From IMG/VR virus record IMGVR_UViG_3300019458_000064, positions 1-40,762 of that record: DNA of 40,762 bases. One strand, 5' to 3'. The notes beneath the pieces are model-generated. The model was not told the origin of the DNA, did no database searches, and saw only the letters and a list, made by a program, of their open reading frames with translations. Within the stretch, counting starts at the first letter, position 1. Every line of letters starts with the position of its first letter. The position numbers and the translations under genes are program-made. The DNA is from a virus. Shown here one piece after another: positions 24,996 to 33,227 of the stretch.

Positions 24996-25219
24996 ACGAC
25001 CACCTCCAACCGCGCTACAAAGTTGAGATGCTCGCGCTTTAGGTCATCCTGCCATCGTTCTCTGAAGTCCGTGAACCATGCGGCATGGAACAGCCGCTCC
25101 ATATCCGGGATGCGGTGGTATAGTGCCTGGCTGTCAACCATATGGTCTTCCCCCAAGCTGCGGAGGTAGTGGCCACCTGCTGCCTGCTCGCCACGCTGCT
25201 GTGGGGTCAGCTTATTCAT
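24974..25219 (-). CDS. Hypothetical protein
   Basis: 81 residues, ATG overlapping the stop of the sigma-like gene (ATGA). An internal Met at residue 27 begins MVDSQALYHR, a stretch whose DNA recurs inverted at 30485-30511. The rest (MERLFHAAWFTDFRERWQDD) is helical and the end has CGSC. No family recognised. It overlaps the next membrane-peptide gene by 22 bases. Confidence 0.55.
   Translation of the reverse strand: MNKLTPQQRGEQAAGGHYLRSLGEDHMVDSQALYHRIPDMERLFHAAWFTDFRERWQDDLKREHLNFVARLEVVVCGSCSA
25115..25141 (-). repeat. 27-bp dispersed inverted repeat, copy 1
   Basis: Read leftward it begins ATGGTTGACAGCC and matches 30485-30511 on the other strand at 26 of 27 positions; it encodes MVDSQALYH in both places. 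It lies inside the 81-residue gene. Confidence 0.9.
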
Positions 25220-25515
25220 TTGAGGTCTTCCTGTATATGAAGTGCTCCGGCATGCCGAATTATTTTTTCGGTGCGAAGGGCTTCCTTCTGCCGGTCAGCG
25301 CTACGGCGGGCGTTAGCGGCTACGCTTCGTACCGCACCGACCGCCCAAGGCCACGCCATAGAGACCGGGCGCACGGCCAACTCGGGACTCGCCAGCATCC
25401 GGGCTATAGCCGTATGGGCTACATCCTCGTATCCGGTCCGCACTCGGCGCCTTGCTACGGCGATTAGCTGCTCGTAGTGCTCCTCGATCCACGCGTCAAA
25501 TTCAGCTCTCGTCAT
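25216..25515 (-). CDS. Stand-alone sigma-70 region 2-like protein
   Basis: 99 residues. FDAWIEEHYEQLIAVARRRV, then YEDVAHTAIARML and WPWAVGAVRSVAANARRSAD follow the pattern of ECF sigma region 2 (core-binding and -10-binding helices). There is no region 4. A single-domain protein of this kind could bind host RNA polymerase and redirect or block transcription. In a phage without its own polymerase it is a candidate for the early-to-late switch. The family assignment is by pattern only. Confidence 0.6.
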   Translation of the reverse strand: MTRAEFDAWIEEHYEQLIAVARRRVRTGYEDVAHTAIARMLASPELAVRPVSMAWPWAVGAVRSVAANARRSADRQKEALRTEKIIRHAGALHIQEDLK

Positions 25516-28405: not shown

Positions 28406-28558
28406 ATAGCCATCTAGCAGTAACAGTTATTGAGTTACTAGGTTATCGAAGCTGTTACGGGAGTCGCGCTGGTCGCGCTCCCCCCATCAACTTCTGTAAC
28501 TCCCCTACTGCTACTGTTACCGTATACTCCTACCAGGAACGACATAACGACTCCATTG

Positions 28559-28795
28559 GTGCAGTGTCCCCGGTGCGGCGCCGACTACCCGTTACCTGTG
28601 GAGCCTCTGTATTCCCGTGAGACCGTCTGTGCGCTGGTACCTATCAACCCCAACACCTTGGCCAGCTGGTTGACTCGTCACAAGGGTATCCTCAGCCCGG
28701 CCCAGTACACGGGGAAGGCTCGCCGTCGCCGGAGACTGTACACGGCCCAGGATATCCGAGTGCTGCGTGCGGCGCTGGTCAGTCCCAAGCGGTAG
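28559..28795 (+). CDS. Zinc-ribbon plus MerR-like HTH DNA-binding protein
   Basis: 78 residues from GTG (a TTG directly before it would add one residue). The N-terminal knuckle CPRCGADYP is followed by a helix-turn-helix-like part (YSRETVCALVPINPNTLASW, then RRRRRLYTAQDIRVLRAAL) of MerR/excisionase type. A ribosome site is not evident; GGAA lies far upstream, which suggests regulated translation or a leaderless-like start. It is the only gene in the repeat-rich control region and is the best candidate regulator of it. Confidence 0.6.
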   Translation: MQCPRCGADYPLPVEPLYSRETVCALVPINPNTLASWLTRHKGILSPAQYTGKARRRRRLYTAQDIRVLRAALVSPKR

Positions 28796-28831
28796 CGGTC
28801 GCACCGTAGCCACGGCACAGGCCCTCCAGAT

Positions 28832-29104
28832 CTACTTTCTCCTGGCACTCCTGGCACTCCTAGCCGCGCGGATTACACGGATAGTGGTCTTCACTGGCGC
28901 ATCGGTCTCAACCCACAATCGCGCGCCATGGGGTAGCGGGTTGTTAGCGTCATACCGAAACGTAGCAAACCCACGAATCTGGGCGCTATGTGCGTAGCGA
29001 ACCTTGCCGTACCGGCCGTGACTCACGCGGATAGGTGGTTGGTTCGTACCTCGTTTTCGGTTAGAGTCGATAACTCCGCGATTAACCGTGATGTAGGTTT
29101 TCAT
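28832..29104 (-). CDS. Small basic hypothetical protein
   Basis: 90 residues from the ATG at 29104, overlapping the previous stop (ATGA). Rich in Arg, with KTYITVNRGVIDSNRKRGTN, then IRVSHGRYGKVRYAHSAQIR and a C-terminal RAARSARSARRK. A basic beta-rich nucleic-acid-binding protein is likely. It and the gene before it form a two-gene leftward operon from the second promoter copy. Confidence 0.65.
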   Translation of the reverse strand: MKTYITVNRGVIDSNRKRGTNQPPIRVSHGRYGKVRYAHSAQIRGFATFRYDANNPLPHGARLWVETDAPVKTTIRVIRAARSARSARRK

Positions 29105-29271
29105 TGCCGACGCTTCTGATCGCGTTCGATGATCGCGATACGCTCCCTCAATTCCTCGACTACATCCGGGAACGAATCGCTGGTGCAGAGCAGTGAGAGC
29201 AGAGCCTTCGCGTCCGGCATGGAAAGGGTAACTTTTACTTCTGAGTACCTCGTCTGATGACTCTTGTTCAT
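29101..29271 (-). CDS. Small helical hypothetical protein
   Basis: 56 residues from an ATG with AAGGAGA 7 bases upstream. Polar start (NKSHQTRYSEVKVTLSMPDA) and helical end (VVEELRERIAIIERDQKRRQ). It is the first gene behind the leftward promoter at 29315-29344. The EVKVTLSMPDAKALLSLL part resembles ribbon-helix-helix-like or small regulatory proteins but I cannot assign it. Confidence 0.6.
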   Translation of the reverse strand: MNKSHQTRYSEVKVTLSMPDAKALLSLLCTSDSFPDVVEELRERIAIIERDQKRRQ

Positions 29272-29314
29272 TGCTGGGTCTCCTTGGCTTTACCGGTCTA
29301 TGTTGATGTTGTGT

Positions 29315-29344
29315 ATTATAAAGCATATCCCGGGCCAATGTCAA
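29315..29344 (-). promoter_or_regulatory. Leftward sigma70 promoter PL2
   Basis: Read leftward: TTGACA (29344-29339), 18-base spacer, TATAAT (29320-29315), both perfect consensus hexamers. It serves the two-gene operon 29271-28832. Its -35 region is part of the duplicated leader block. Confidence 0.85.
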
Positions 29345-29503
29345 GCTCCGACAAGCTCCGACATAAAAGAGGTTGTAACCAGCGGAGAAGAAAGACTTTA
29401 TTAGACTGGGCCAGTCTGGGCCCAGCAAAACCCTGCACGTGAACTAGGTAGTAATTTGTCCCATTTAGGTACAGGTGTCACCAACATGTGTCATTTGGTT
29501 GAC
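29334..29503. repeat. Duplicated leader block, copy B
   Basis: Second copy of 27938-28074, about 1.4 kb away in the same orientation, with two short insertions (a doubled AGCTCCGACA and a GC-rich piece around 29410-29450). Again the right end carries the identical TGTCACCAACATG ... TTTGGTTGAC, suggesting the same protein controls both leftward promoters. Confidence 0.85.
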
Positions 29504-29538
29504 AATCGTGGAGCCCGGTATCGGCCAGAGGACTATAG

Positions 29539-29579
29539 AGCCACTGTCGGAGCCACTGTCTGTTATCGGTAGCCACTGT
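29539..29579. repeat. Three AGCCACTGT direct repeats
   Basis: AGCCACTGT at 29539, 29551 and 29571, in the otherwise gene-free stretch 29272-29631. Spacing 12 and 20 bases. They may be binding sites for a regulator. Confidence 0.6.
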
Positions 29580-29631
29580 GAGGCCGTAGGCCGCCATCCT
29601 ATCCCTCGCTCGGTGCTGAAGTCTCGGCTCC

Positions 29632-30123
29632 GTGGCGCGCAGGAGCCTTCTCATCGCTCGAAAGCAGTCCCCGGCCGCTATGATCCGGTCCGCAGCTGCG
29701 CTTGCCTCTCCTGACGCTGTCGGTGGCCCGCTCGGGCTCCGGGAGCGGATGCTGGAGATGGCCGGGGTCACGGAGGCTGAGCAAGCCGTCGTGGTGCGAC
29801 TGGCGATCACTAAGCTGGTTGAGTTGACCAAGGCCAAGCGGACGCAGCGCCTAGTGGTCAACGTCGGTCTGAACACGAGCGAGGTCCAAGAGTTTGTGGA
29901 CGACGACGGTGCCCTGCAAGCGAGAGCCGCTTCGGAACTCCTCGATCGTTTCGGCGTCGTAGTGTCTAAGGCGCAGGCTTCACTGACCGGTGGCGGCGAT
30001 CTGGTGGTGCATGTCCACAAGGTCCAGCCTCCGGCACCCGCTACCATCGTGGTTAACGAAGCGCCATCGGCTCGACCCGAAGCAGACACCTCCGCTTCGA
30101 CGCTAACCTCTTATAATCGTTAG
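29632..30123 (+). CDS. Possible small terminase subunit
   Basis: 163 residues from a GTG (an in-frame stop lies 15 bases upstream); an ATG at 29680 is an alternative. Basic N-terminus, then LGLRERMLEMAGVTEAEQAV, a helical core (AITKLVELTKAKRTQR), and ALQARAASELLDRFGVVVSK, a pattern found in small terminase subunits before their C-terminal region. The tail is Pro/Ala-rich. It lies upstream of the large terminase and next to the 10-bp repeat array. Family assignment is tentative. Confidence 0.4.
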   Translation: MARRSLLIARKQSPAAMIRSAAALASPDAVGGPLGLRERMLEMAGVTEAEQAVVVRLAITKLVELTKAKRTQRLVVNVGLNTSEVQEFVDDDGALQARAASELLDRFGVVVSKAQASLTGGGDLVVHVHKVQPPAPATIVVNEAPSARPEADTSASTLTSYNR

Positions 30124-30131
30124 CGATTACA
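30110..30131. promoter_or_regulatory. Dyad operator-like element
   Basis: TAATCG-TTAG-CGATTA (30113-30128) is a perfect 6-bp inverted repeat with a 4-base centre, over a TATAAT-like sequence at the end of the preceding gene and immediately before the decamer array. Confidence 0.45.
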
Positions 30132-30136
30132 AGGTG

Positions 30137-30302
30137 TGTCATTCGTTGTCGCCTGCTGTCAATCGCTGTCACTAGCTGTCACTCATTGTCACCTGCTGCT
30201 AACCGCTGTCACTCGTTGTCACTTACCGTCATATAGTGACACTATTTGTCACTCTGAGCAGCGCGTCAGCGGTGTCACAGCGGTGTCACGGCGCGTCAGA
30301 GG
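30137..30302. repeat. 10-bp-periodic TGTCACT array
   Basis: Starting at 30137 the decamer TGTCACTNGY recurs with exact 10-base spacing for 12 units to 30256; units at 30197, 30227 and 30237 are degenerate. Four more TGTCAC or CGTCA units follow at 30264, 30273, 30284 and 30294. One unit per helical turn places all contacts on one DNA face. The same TGTCAC core occurs in the leader blocks and at 30804 and 31163. Candidate packaging (pac) or initiator-binding site. Confidence 0.85.
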
Positions 30303-30410
30303 GTGCCATGTGCCCCGGCGATGCGCACTGTGGCATATGCTAAGTAATTGTTATACAAGCGTTTTCGCCCGGCCGTCGGGGGCATACCCCAAAATTGACG
30401 CACTGTCTCA

Positions 30411-30438
30411 TTGAGTTCGGGACCTATTTGGCTATAGT
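30411..30438 (+). promoter_or_regulatory. Possible rightward sigma70 promoter
   Basis: TTGAGT (30411-30416), 16-base spacer, TATAGT (30433-30438), pointing to the genes before the large terminase. It lies in the gene-free stretch 30124-30475, after the decamer array. Confidence 0.45.
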
Positions 30439-30475
30439 ACCAAAAATCCGAAATACATTAACCACTTAGCCTCGT

Positions 30476-31028: not shown

Positions 31029-31165
31029 CCTTCTTGCATCCGGAGTTCGCGATGGACACCTTGAAGACGCTAGGCCTGCTCCTCGTGGCTGGAATATGTC
31101 TCGGGGTGGCGCTGATCGCCCGGGACGTTCGAGATTGCTGCGGCTGTAATCGCCCCAAGCGATGA
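31025..31165 (+). CDS. Small membrane peptide with C-terminal CCGC
   Basis: 46 residues, ATG overlapping the previous stop. One membrane helix (LGLLLVAGICLGVALIA) followed by a cytoplasmic-looking RDVRDCCGCNRPKR tail with three Cys. Function unknown. Downstream lies a 15-bp perfect palindrome. Confidence 0.5.
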   Translation: MTFLHPEFAMDTLKTLGLLLVAGICLGVALIARDVRDCCGCNRPKR

Positions 31166-31177
31166 CACGTCGTGTCA
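31163..31177. promoter_or_regulatory. 15-bp palindromic operator-like site
   Basis: TGACACGTCGTGTCA is a perfect odd-centred palindrome made of two TGTCAC-type half sites, the same core as the decamer array. It lies between the membrane peptide and the terminase leader. Confidence 0.5.
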
Positions 31178-31241: not shown

Positions 31242-31436
31242 GTGGACGAAGAGTACGACCGACCGGATCCCTGCCCGCACTGCACGGACCCCACGAATAC
31301 CGCCTCTAGCTACGCCCGCGGAGAAGCACACTGTCACCTGAGATCTCGCTCCAAATCCCGAGGTACTTCAAGCCGCGCTCGTATCAGTGGGAGTTCATTC
31401 GTGCGATGCGCGCCGGGGCGAAGCGCGCCGCGCTAG
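31242..31436 (+). CDS. Small CPHC-containing protein overlapping the terminase start
   Basis: 64 residues from a GTG with GGAGG 5 bases upstream. The first about 31 residues (EEYDRPDPCPHCTDPTNTAS, then HC) look like a small zinc-knuckle protein. From 31331 on it overlaps large terminase in another frame and becomes Arg/Ser-rich, the mark of an out-of-frame reading. It may be a leader gene coupled to terminase; a -1 shift would fuse it to terminase. Confidence 0.4.
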   Translation: MDEEYDRPDPCPHCTDPTNTASSYARGEAHCHLRSRSKSRGTSSRARISGSSFVRCAPGRSAPR

Positions 31437-32794
31437 TCTGGCATCGACGCGCCGGGAAGGACGACACCACGCTGAACTGGGTGATCGAGGCCATGCTGGA
31501 ACGCGCCGGCACCTACTACTACTTCCTGCCAACATACGCCCAAGCAAAGAAGGTCATCTGGGACGCGCAGCGGCAGCCCTCGGGGCAGCCGTTTCTCGAT
31601 CACTTCCCGACGGAGCTGATCGTCGCGAAGAACGAGACGGAAATGAGGATCACGCTGGCGCTGCCTAACGGGCGGCACAGCACCTTCCAATTGGTCGGCG
31701 CCGACAACATCGATTCGATCGTCGGCACGAACCCGGTCGGCGTTGTCTTTTCCGAGTACAGCCTCATCCCGCCATCGTCGTGGGACCTGGTCCGCCCGAT
31801 CCTGGCGGAGAACGGCGGCTGGGCCGTCTTCGTGTTCACCCCGCGCGGTCGGAACTGGGCGGCGGAGTTGTGGGCTCACGCCCGCAAGTCGCCCGAGTGG
31901 TTCACGAGCTTGAAGACGATCCGCGATACCCGGCGCGATTCGCCCGATGAAGACGGCAGTCCCGTGATTACCGACGAGGCCGTCCAGCAGGAGCGCGACG
32001 GCGGGCTGATGGAAGAGCTGGTGCAGCAGGAGTTCTTCTGCTCCTTCGAGGGCGCCATGCAGGGCTCCTACTACGGCGACCTGATCGAGCGAATGCGGAA
32101 AGAGGGCCGGATCACCGCTGTTCCGCTTGACCGCGACGTACTCGTCGACACCGCCTGGGACTTAGGCGTGGACGACGAGACGGTCATCGGATTCTTTCAG
32201 AACGTCACGGACCGCGTGCGCGGGCGCAAGATCATCACGCTCATCGACATCGAAGTCGGCGGCGGCGCCGGGCTCGAGCACTACTGGCGCTTGATGCAGT
32301 CAAAGCCCTACACCTATGGGCGCCACTACGGTCCCCACGACTTGAAGGTGCAGGAGTGGGGCTCCGGCAACACGCGACTTCAGTCCGCCGCGCGGATGGG
32401 GCTTCACTTCGAGGTGGTCCCGAAGATCTCGCTCCCGGACGGCATCAACGCCGTGCGCCGCATGCTGCCGCACCTCTGGGTCGACGAGGACGTCGCCAAC
32501 CGGAAGTACGGAAAGATGGCGACGTGGATCGACGCGATGACTGGCTACCGGCGCGAGTTCGACGAGAAGACGCAGACGTTCCGGCTCCAGCCACACCATG
32601 ACTGGACGTCGCACTACGCGGACATGACGCGCTATCGCGCGGTCCTCTACAGCAGCGCGAGCGGGCTGTTCGCGACGCGCGAGTCGCAGCGCCCCACGCA
32701 AGGCGACACGCACTGGAGCGTCTTCGACGAGCCACATAGCCCGGCCGGTAGGCCGCAACACTCGCACACGAGGTGGTCGGTCTTTGGCGACTAG
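31331..32794 (+). CDS. terL: Terminase large subunit
   Basis: 487 residues if started at CTG 31331, 7 bases after GGAG. The conserved N-terminus (LQIPRYFKPRSYQWEFIRAM) begins before the first ATG (31406) and no ATG, GTG or TTG lies in frame between the upstream stop (about 31308) and it. ATPase: Walker A-like VWHRRAGKDD, Walker B region VGVVFSEYSLIPPSSW. Nuclease: VLVDTAWDLGVDD with the metal-binding Asp residues, then HYGPHDLKVQEW. The C-terminal tail has two WSVFD/G motifs. It packages DNA through the portal and cuts it. The CTG start is inferred. Confidence 0.85.
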   Translation: MSPEISLQIPRYFKPRSYQWEFIRAMRAGAKRAALVWHRRAGKDDTTLNWVIEAMLERAGTYYYFLPTYAQAKKVIWDAQRQPSGQPFLDHFPTELIVAKNETEMRITLALPNGRHSTFQLVGADNIDSIVGTNPVGVVFSEYSLIPPSSWDLVRPILAENGGWAVFVFTPRGRNWAAELWAHARKSPEWFTSLKTIRDTRRDSPDEDGSPVITDEAVQQERDGGLMEELVQQEFFCSFEGAMQGSYYGDLIERMRKEGRITAVPLDRDVLVDTAWDLGVDDETVIGFFQNVTDRVRGRKIITLIDIEVGGGAGLEHYWRLMQSKPYTYGRHYGPHDLKVQEWGSGNTRLQSAARMGLHFEVVPKISLPDGINAVRRMLPHLWVDEDVANRKYGKMATWIDAMTGYRREFDEKTQTFRLQPHHDWTSHYADMTRYRAVLYSSASGLFATRESQRPTQGDTHWSVFDEPHSPAGRPQHSHTRWSVFGD

Positions 32795-33227
32795 CCGACT
32801 CGGCGGCGCTATCGACACGCTCTCACCGCGTGACGCGCTGGCGACGATCGCGTCGATGGGCAACCCTCGGGGACGCAACGGCGGCTACCTGAAGTCACCC
32901 CTCGCTGGTTCGATGGTTGGTCTCCGCCAGCTGAACCACGCGAACCTGCCGAAGAATGACTCGGTCGACCCATTAGGTGAAGACCCAGACGCGCAAGACG
33001 CCCTCGTGACGGTCCTGCCGACCGCGTCGATCATCGCGGTCACGGTCGCGGAATTGTCGGCGTTCGATCCCGGCGGTGGTGGTGGTGGTGACGGCGGCGG
33101 AGGCGACGGGGGTGGCGGAACGGGCAGCGGCGACGGGGGTGGCGGAACGGGCAGCGGTGGCGGTCCCTCCGGTGACGGCGGCGGCGGCGGCGCTGGTCCT
33201 GGTGGCGTGGGCGATGGTGCATTCTGA
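32784..33227 (+). CDS. Hypothetical protein with Gly-rich C-terminus
   Basis: 147 residues from a TTG behind GAGGTGG, overlapping the terminase end by 11 bases. The N-terminal about 90 residues are unrecognised (GGAIDTLSPRDALATIASMG). The last about 50 are almost only Gly with Asp, Ser and Thr in repeats such as GGDGGGGTGSG. A Gly-rich tail suggests a flexible structural or host-adhesive part. Repeat expansion in the DNA (CGGCGGNGGT type) is visible around 33070-33200. Confidence 0.6.
   Translation: MATSRLGGAIDTLSPRDALATIASMGNPRGRNGGYLKSPLAGSMVGLRQLNHANLPKNDSVDPLGEDPDAQDALVTVLPTASIIAVTVAELSAFDPGGGGGGDGGGGDGGGGTGSGDGGGGTGSGGGPSGDGGGGGAGPGGVGDGAF

Follow-up and report, generated by a model that had tools for sequence, protein, structure and literature searches.

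The region between a small-terminase-like gene (TerS) and the large terminase gene (TerL) of this phage contains twelve copies of the ten-base unit TGTCACTNGY, which occupy positions 30137-30256 on the + strand in exact 10-base phase. The array is best read as a helically phased multi-site operator near the packaging genes. That it serves as the operator of the packaging and late-gene region is a tentative assignment, to which we give a probability of roughly 0.38. The window, that is, the whole stretch of 40,762 nucleotides that was analyzed, is a podovirus sequence from a metagenomic IMG/VR virus record. Its gene order is T7-like, with the early genes running leftward and the packaging, head and tail genes running rightward. 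No tRNA or Rfam elements were found in the window.

The slots of the array start at 30137, 30147 and so on to 30247, with a constant step of 10 bases, and read in order TGTCATTCGT, TGTCGCCTGC, TGTCAATCGC, TGTCACTAGC, TGTCACTCAT, TGTCACCTGC, TGCTAACCGC, TGTCACTCGT, TGTCACTTAC, CGTCATATAG, TGACACTATT and TGTCACTCTG. TGTCA is perfect in eight of the twelve slots and TGTCAC in six, the deviant slots being 2 (TGTCG), 7 (TGCTA), 10 (CGTCA) and 11 (TGACA). In the count-based consensus, TGTCACTCGC, the TGTCA part is strong and the linker is weak. The twelve decamers in exact phase had been reported in an earlier, sequence-only reading of this DNA and were confirmed here: the array has a score of 21.0, whereas the highest score was 5.0 among 2000 dinucleotide shuffles of the local region and 4.5 among 60 shuffles of the whole window. 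Mismatches are found at 5 of the 60 positions of the TGTCA halves and at 25 of the 60 linker positions (Fisher p=3.8e-5). The TGTCA core thus appears to be selected, because duplicates that were merely decaying would vary evenly across the unit. Judged by these features, the array looks like a protein-binding array rather than a decaying minisatellite. The same difference between core and linker supports binding, in agreement with the earlier description: many short sites in phase over a long stretch, as would be expected if a protein binds the DNA at multiple sites. The array also has a higher-order period of 40 bases (82% match), showing that past duplications shaped it and that its slots are not fully independent.

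Four weaker cores, CGTCA, TGTCAC, TGTCAC and CGTCA, follow at 30264-30303 (+), and an 11-bp array is reported by TRF at 30267-30293. They start at 30264, 30273, 30284 and 30294. These cores had been described as continuing the array at a spacing of 9-11 bases, which is correct for the later steps (9, 11 and 10 bases), but the first step, from slot 12, is 17 bases. Just 5' of the array, at the end of the TerS gene, the sequence reads as a perfect inverted repeat, TAATCG-TTAG-CGATTA (30115-30130).

The proposal that the units present one face of the DNA holds only approximately. With 10.0 bases per unit and 10.5 bp per turn, the sites drift by about 17° per unit and by about 190°, or about half a turn, over the twelve units. 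To touch all of the sites, a protein therefore has to bend the DNA into a curve or overtwist it. Each unit of the array also brings TG and CA steps into phase, and because these steps are flexible, such phasing favors bending.

The core had also been thought to recur elsewhere. The palindrome TGACACGTCGTGTCA is indeed present at 31163-31177, but the wider recurrence is weaker than claimed, since TGTCA/TGACA is found 60 times in the window outside 30130-30310, which is at chance level (58 expected). The single notable local excess, in one among several stretches tested, is in the TerS leader at 29300-29640 (4 compared with 0.7, p=0.005). The TerS leader also has three copies of AGCCACTGT at 29538-29585, with steps of 12 and 21 bases. 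The overlapping ORF 30136-30414 is unsupported, and a coding repeat was rejected because the step of 10 bases is not divisible by three and because relatives have no array there. CRISPR was likewise rejected, the units being 10 bases long and without long spacers; the earlier judgment that the array is neither CRISPR nor a set of 20-22-bp iterons was borne out, as was its placement between a small-terminase-like gene and TerL.

The small-terminase core-like gene (29632-30123, +) encodes a protein of 163 aa and is conserved in L003-L006, L008, L013 and L206. Its homologues precede TerL in the relatives. The product has no Pfam or PHROG match. An AlphaFold2 model was built from eight sequences, with a pLDDT of 80-90 in the core and 64 overall. 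Foldseek ranks 1-7 and VIA ranks 1-4 for this model are the oligomerization domain of SF6/SPP1-like TerS, with weak scores (E 0.04, Z 4.9), and the resemblance covers the oligomerization part only (residues 65-140) of SF6 TerS. The model thus suggests that the product resembles the ring core of the SPP1/SF6 small terminase. It had been put forward as a binder of the array, a role that is not supported, as no DNA-binding domain is recognizable in it.

Another candidate is a 79-aa protein with a Zn ribbon and a MerR-like winged helix (wHTH), encoded at 28556-28795 (+). It matches PF13411 with an E value of 0.0017, which is below the cut-off, and phrog_4745 (DNA binding) with an E value of 9e-4. 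The wHTH gene is situated directly 5' of TerS in relatives and 0.8 kb upstream of it in the window. Its product may be a regulator, or else the DNA-binding part of the small terminase as a separate subunit; a split small terminase, consisting of a ring core and a separate wHTH protein, is a reasonable inference. The two genes are separated by an insertion of 836 bases (28796-29631) that is absent in relatives. The insertion holds a two-gene operon on the minus strand, composed of an orphan gene for 56 aa (29101-29271) and a phrog_8676 gene (28832-29104), with a perfect sigma70 promoter, TTGACA-18-TATAAT, at 29344-29315 (-). TGTCA sites are found within the insertion at 29476, 29489 and 29500. 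The orphan gene has a strong SD and the phrog_8676 gene overlaps start/stop, while the genes flanking the insertion touch in relatives.

TerL is encoded at 31406-32794 (+) and matches phrog_2472 (E 3e-28) and phrog_2 (E 1e-22). Its true start is probably further upstream, near 31334, as the frame is homologous upstream of the ATG. Between the array and TerL lies a non-coding block, GGGGGCATACCCCAAAATTGACGC...GGGACC...GGCTATAGTACCAAAAATCC (30377-30460, +), found by alignment of relatives and conserved in L003, L005, L006, L206 and L208. The block was also read as CCCCAAAATGACGC..GGGGACC..GTACCgAAAATCCGG in relatives, some with and some without the -10 box. A promoter scan places a sigma70-like promoter, TTGAGT-16-TATAGT, in this block at 30411-30438, from which the TerL, portal and capsid genes are fed. 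This is the + strand promoter nearest to the array, the gap between the end of the array at about 30303 and the -35 box at 30411 being about 110 bases. The block is a candidate cleavage site or promoter.

The array and the 836-base insertion are peculiar to this phage. When the sequence upstream of TerL (up to 3 kb) was scanned in 45 relatives for phased repeats with periods of 9-12 bases, whatever their motif, none was found, whereas the array of the window stands out in such a scan. The array is thus specific to the present lineage and lies in a variable spacer, which in relatives extends over roughly 30 to 130 bases from the TerS stop to the block (about 30 in L208). Retention of the phase in close relatives had been set beforehand as a check that could refute the sequence-only reading, and here the outcome was negative: none of the phages that have TerS, the wHTH gene and TerL in common with this one, together with the adjacent block, carries the array, although these relatives are distant, with a TerS identity of only 36-49% (L003, L004, L005). 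Searches for close sister phages with TerS, MCP and TerL gave only distant relatives. YGTCR is found 14 times in the spacers of relatives, compared with 7.8 (p=0.02), an excess too weak to use.

Similar arrays are found in other phages. In IMG/VR, five TGTCA words with a step of 10 bases were found in 32 stretches, corresponding to 27 independent loci. The proteins encoded within 1.3 kb of these arrays include TerL of the families PF03237 (4), PF05876 (3) and PF04466 (3), as well as HNH and Terminase_2 proteins, and there are seven matches to the Alt-related transcriptional regulators of phrog_36. The ACTGT control (19 loci) has fewer TerL matches, one phrog_36 match and three TerS matches to phrog_4102. 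It is an imperfect control, as its sole phrog_36 locus is an ACTGTCA array beside DUF1492 (L253). The 11-base control (15 loci) has few terminase neighbors, with one array before HNH-TerS-TerL. Because both controls include terminase neighbors, the association of TGTCA arrays with packaging genes is suggestive only. A DNA-similarity search for similar arrays in named phages gave nothing significant.

The association is strongest in the layout of single loci. Several of the 10-base TGTCA arrays are situated directly 3' of an Alt/Ltr-like activator gene and 5' of HNH/TerS/TerL, the activator genes matching phrog_36, phrog_2198 ("Alt-like"), DUF1492 or sigma70-r4. At four loci (L212, L214, L184 and L234) the last unit is 18-21 bases 5' of the -10 box. 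The Streptococcus phages 315.3, Javan451, Javan578 and phiSS12 have TGNCAGT units at 10-base steps between the DUF1492 gene and HNH, ending at a promoter. In 315.3 and its relatives there are five TG(A/T/G)CAGT units, whose sequence varies while the phase is largely kept in most loci read; Javan263 has degenerate units only and Javan190 has none. In L222, a GC-rich phage, a gene with a C-terminal winged-helix-like domain (HTH_17, weak) stops inside an array of eight TGTCACT-type units, which is upstream of TerS/TerL. TGTCAC at 10-base spacing is also found inside replication-gene-like ORFs in one cluster of 48 contigs (L179) and in L098, L105 and L150, where the repeats are probably origin iterons.

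The operator assignment is favored because the array is far beyond chance and its core is kept over its linker, because it lies upstream of a conserved promoter block that feeds the TerL, portal and capsid genes, and because 10-base TGTCA arrays elsewhere adjoin Alt/Ltr-like activator genes and promoters, and the L222 array adjoins a gene with a winged-helix-like domain upstream of TerS/TerL. In the proposed mechanism, a single phage DNA-binding protein, for which the wHTH protein (28556-28795) is the most plausible candidate, would occupy the TGTCA cores in adjacent copies, with one copy for each helical turn. The bound copies would cover about 120-170 bp as a nucleoprotein filament which, being beside the block promoter at 30411-30438, would control transcription of the packaging and head operon.

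The Ltr of phage phi13 requires upstream direct repeats, the Alt of TP901-1 binds four imperfect direct repeats between -76 and -32, and Ltrs in general bind four repeats (PMC13123087). The Streptococcus-phage and TGTCA promoter arrays fit these published Alt/Ltr operators (PMC13123087). The present array shares with the operators of TP901-1 Alt, S. aureus phi13 Ltr and phrog_36/DUF1492 phages such as 315.3 the position of short direct repeats upstream of a packaging/head operon. Its 10-base step is also found in the Streptococcus phages examined, whose core, TGNCAGT, is related. However, those operators have four to five units that end at the -35 region and an activator gene directly upstream, whereas the present array has twelve plus four units and a promoter more than 100 bases away. 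No Ltr, Alt, RinA-type or sigma-r4 activator was found by matches to phrog_36 or PF08281 in the record, which may be incomplete. The missing Ltr gene and the lack of a promoter at the edge of the array argue against a plain Ltr operator. Furthermore, relatives without the array still have the wHTH gene and the promoter, showing that regulation there does not need it.

It is possible, though doubtful, that the array is instead a cosB- or pac-like packaging-initiation site for a split small terminase. Eight to twelve wHTH subunits on the TerS ring would bind the phased cores, the DNA would wrap around it, and TerL would cut in the adjacent block. The array touches the TerS gene and is 75-240 bases from the conserved non-coding block, the TerS model matches the oligomerization part only, and the wHTH gene is a constant neighbor. 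In the lambda and SPP1 layouts, repeated sites are likewise found near the terminase genes, and the cosB R sites of lambda are bound by the winged helix of gpNu1. The present array resembles lambda cosB and SPP1 pacL/pacR in this respect, in its winged-helix candidate binder and in its distance of 50-250 bases from a possible cleavage block. It differs in having twelve sites at exactly 10 bases, compared with three R sites without exact helical phase in lambda, and in that a gene of its own encodes the candidate DNA-binding subunit. Among the TerL family L002-L081, 18 of the 38 ends of long contigs lie 0-3.6 kb upstream of TerL, where 8.8 are expected (p ~0.001), and five lie downstream, hinting at a physical genome end. 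The known TerS rings of 8-12 protomers (PMC11331095) are also in accord with a packaging site. However, relatives with the same TerS, wHTH and TerL have no array (45 loci), only the downstream block being conserved, and the fold assignment of TerS is weak (pLDDT 64, E 0.04). Known cos and pac sites are short or single, such as the 22 bp of P22 and the 20 bp of PaP3 (PMC9611059), and HK97 TerS threads DNA through its channel (PMC11331095), both of which count against this function. The pac site proposed in the sequence-only reading also loses ground, as TGTCA arrays elsewhere go most clearly with late-promoter activator sites and replication-gene iterons and with no shown pac site. It is distinctly unlikely that about twelve sites, one per helical turn, are matched to a TerS ring with separate winged helices around which the DNA wraps, as in the disputed "nucleosome" model.

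A replication origin, in which an initiator would bind the array as a set of iterons and the DNA would unwind in the AT-rich sequence that follows directly (30341-30380 or 30421-30460), is improbable. The TGTCAC core and the 10-base spacing recur inside replication-gene-like ORFs of many unrelated contigs, but those iterons (L179 cluster, L098, L150) comprise 3-7 units in the coding sequence of these ORFs, whereas the present array is non-coding and without such an initiator. Neither a lambda-O-like (PF04492) nor a DUF1376 (PF07120) initiator was found in the window, the PF07120 search being weak even in controls. The minimum of the cumulative GC skew, at 28-33 kb, and its maximum, near 8-10 kb, are separated by about half a genome, but the divergent order of the genes is reflected in the skew as well. 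The stretch 30421-30460, with 33% GC compared with 62% for the genome, is AT-rich and beside the repeats, though it is also the promoter, and relatives lack the array. It is unlikely, but less so, that the array has no direct role in the phage's own control, being either a tandem repeat that expanded recently or a decoy for a DNA-binding protein of the host or a competitor. Its lineage specificity, its location in a spacer of variable length and the 40-base period, which points to past duplications, would be explained in this way. Simple decay, on the other hand, would not keep the cores so much better than the linkers, even though the slots are not fully independent. The plasmid centromeres parC of R1 and pB171, which are bound by RHH proteins, contain short direct repeats, at least ten in number, with a step of 10-11 bp. 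The array resembles them in the number of its repeats, but the nearby small orphan protein (29101-29271), considered as an RHH binder, gave no structural match to RHH proteins, and homologues of it were found neither in phages nor in genomes.

The way in which small terminases recognize DNA, by wrapping or by threading, is under open debate (PMC9611059, PMC11331095), and a binding test on the array would therefore be informative either way. A phased array beside a terminase with a seemingly detached DNA-binding part would make a clean test substrate. In other phages, packaging genes are known to be switched on through shorter repeat arrays, and the present array resembles these. If it is a late-gene operator, the Alt/Ltr repeat architecture extends to a podovirus without Ltr, and phased TGTCA-type arrays recur at the packaging operons of unrelated phages.

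The ORF after TerL (32784-33227) ends in a glycine-rich stretch of GGT/GGC tandem repeats at 33075-33192. A search for T7-type RNA polymerase (PF00940) gave no match in the window, and none in the control genomes either. A 99-aa protein encoded at 25216-25515 (-) has a sigma-70 region 2-like domain (PF04542, E 9e-5, below the cut-off) without region 4; judged by this match, it is a possible phage transcription factor. Four other loci, L238, L239, L251 and L248, have 10-base arrays of another word, AACTGTTNNN or ACTGTTAGAT, near small-terminase genes (phrog_4102 being matched in the set), and phased arrays near TerS may be general.
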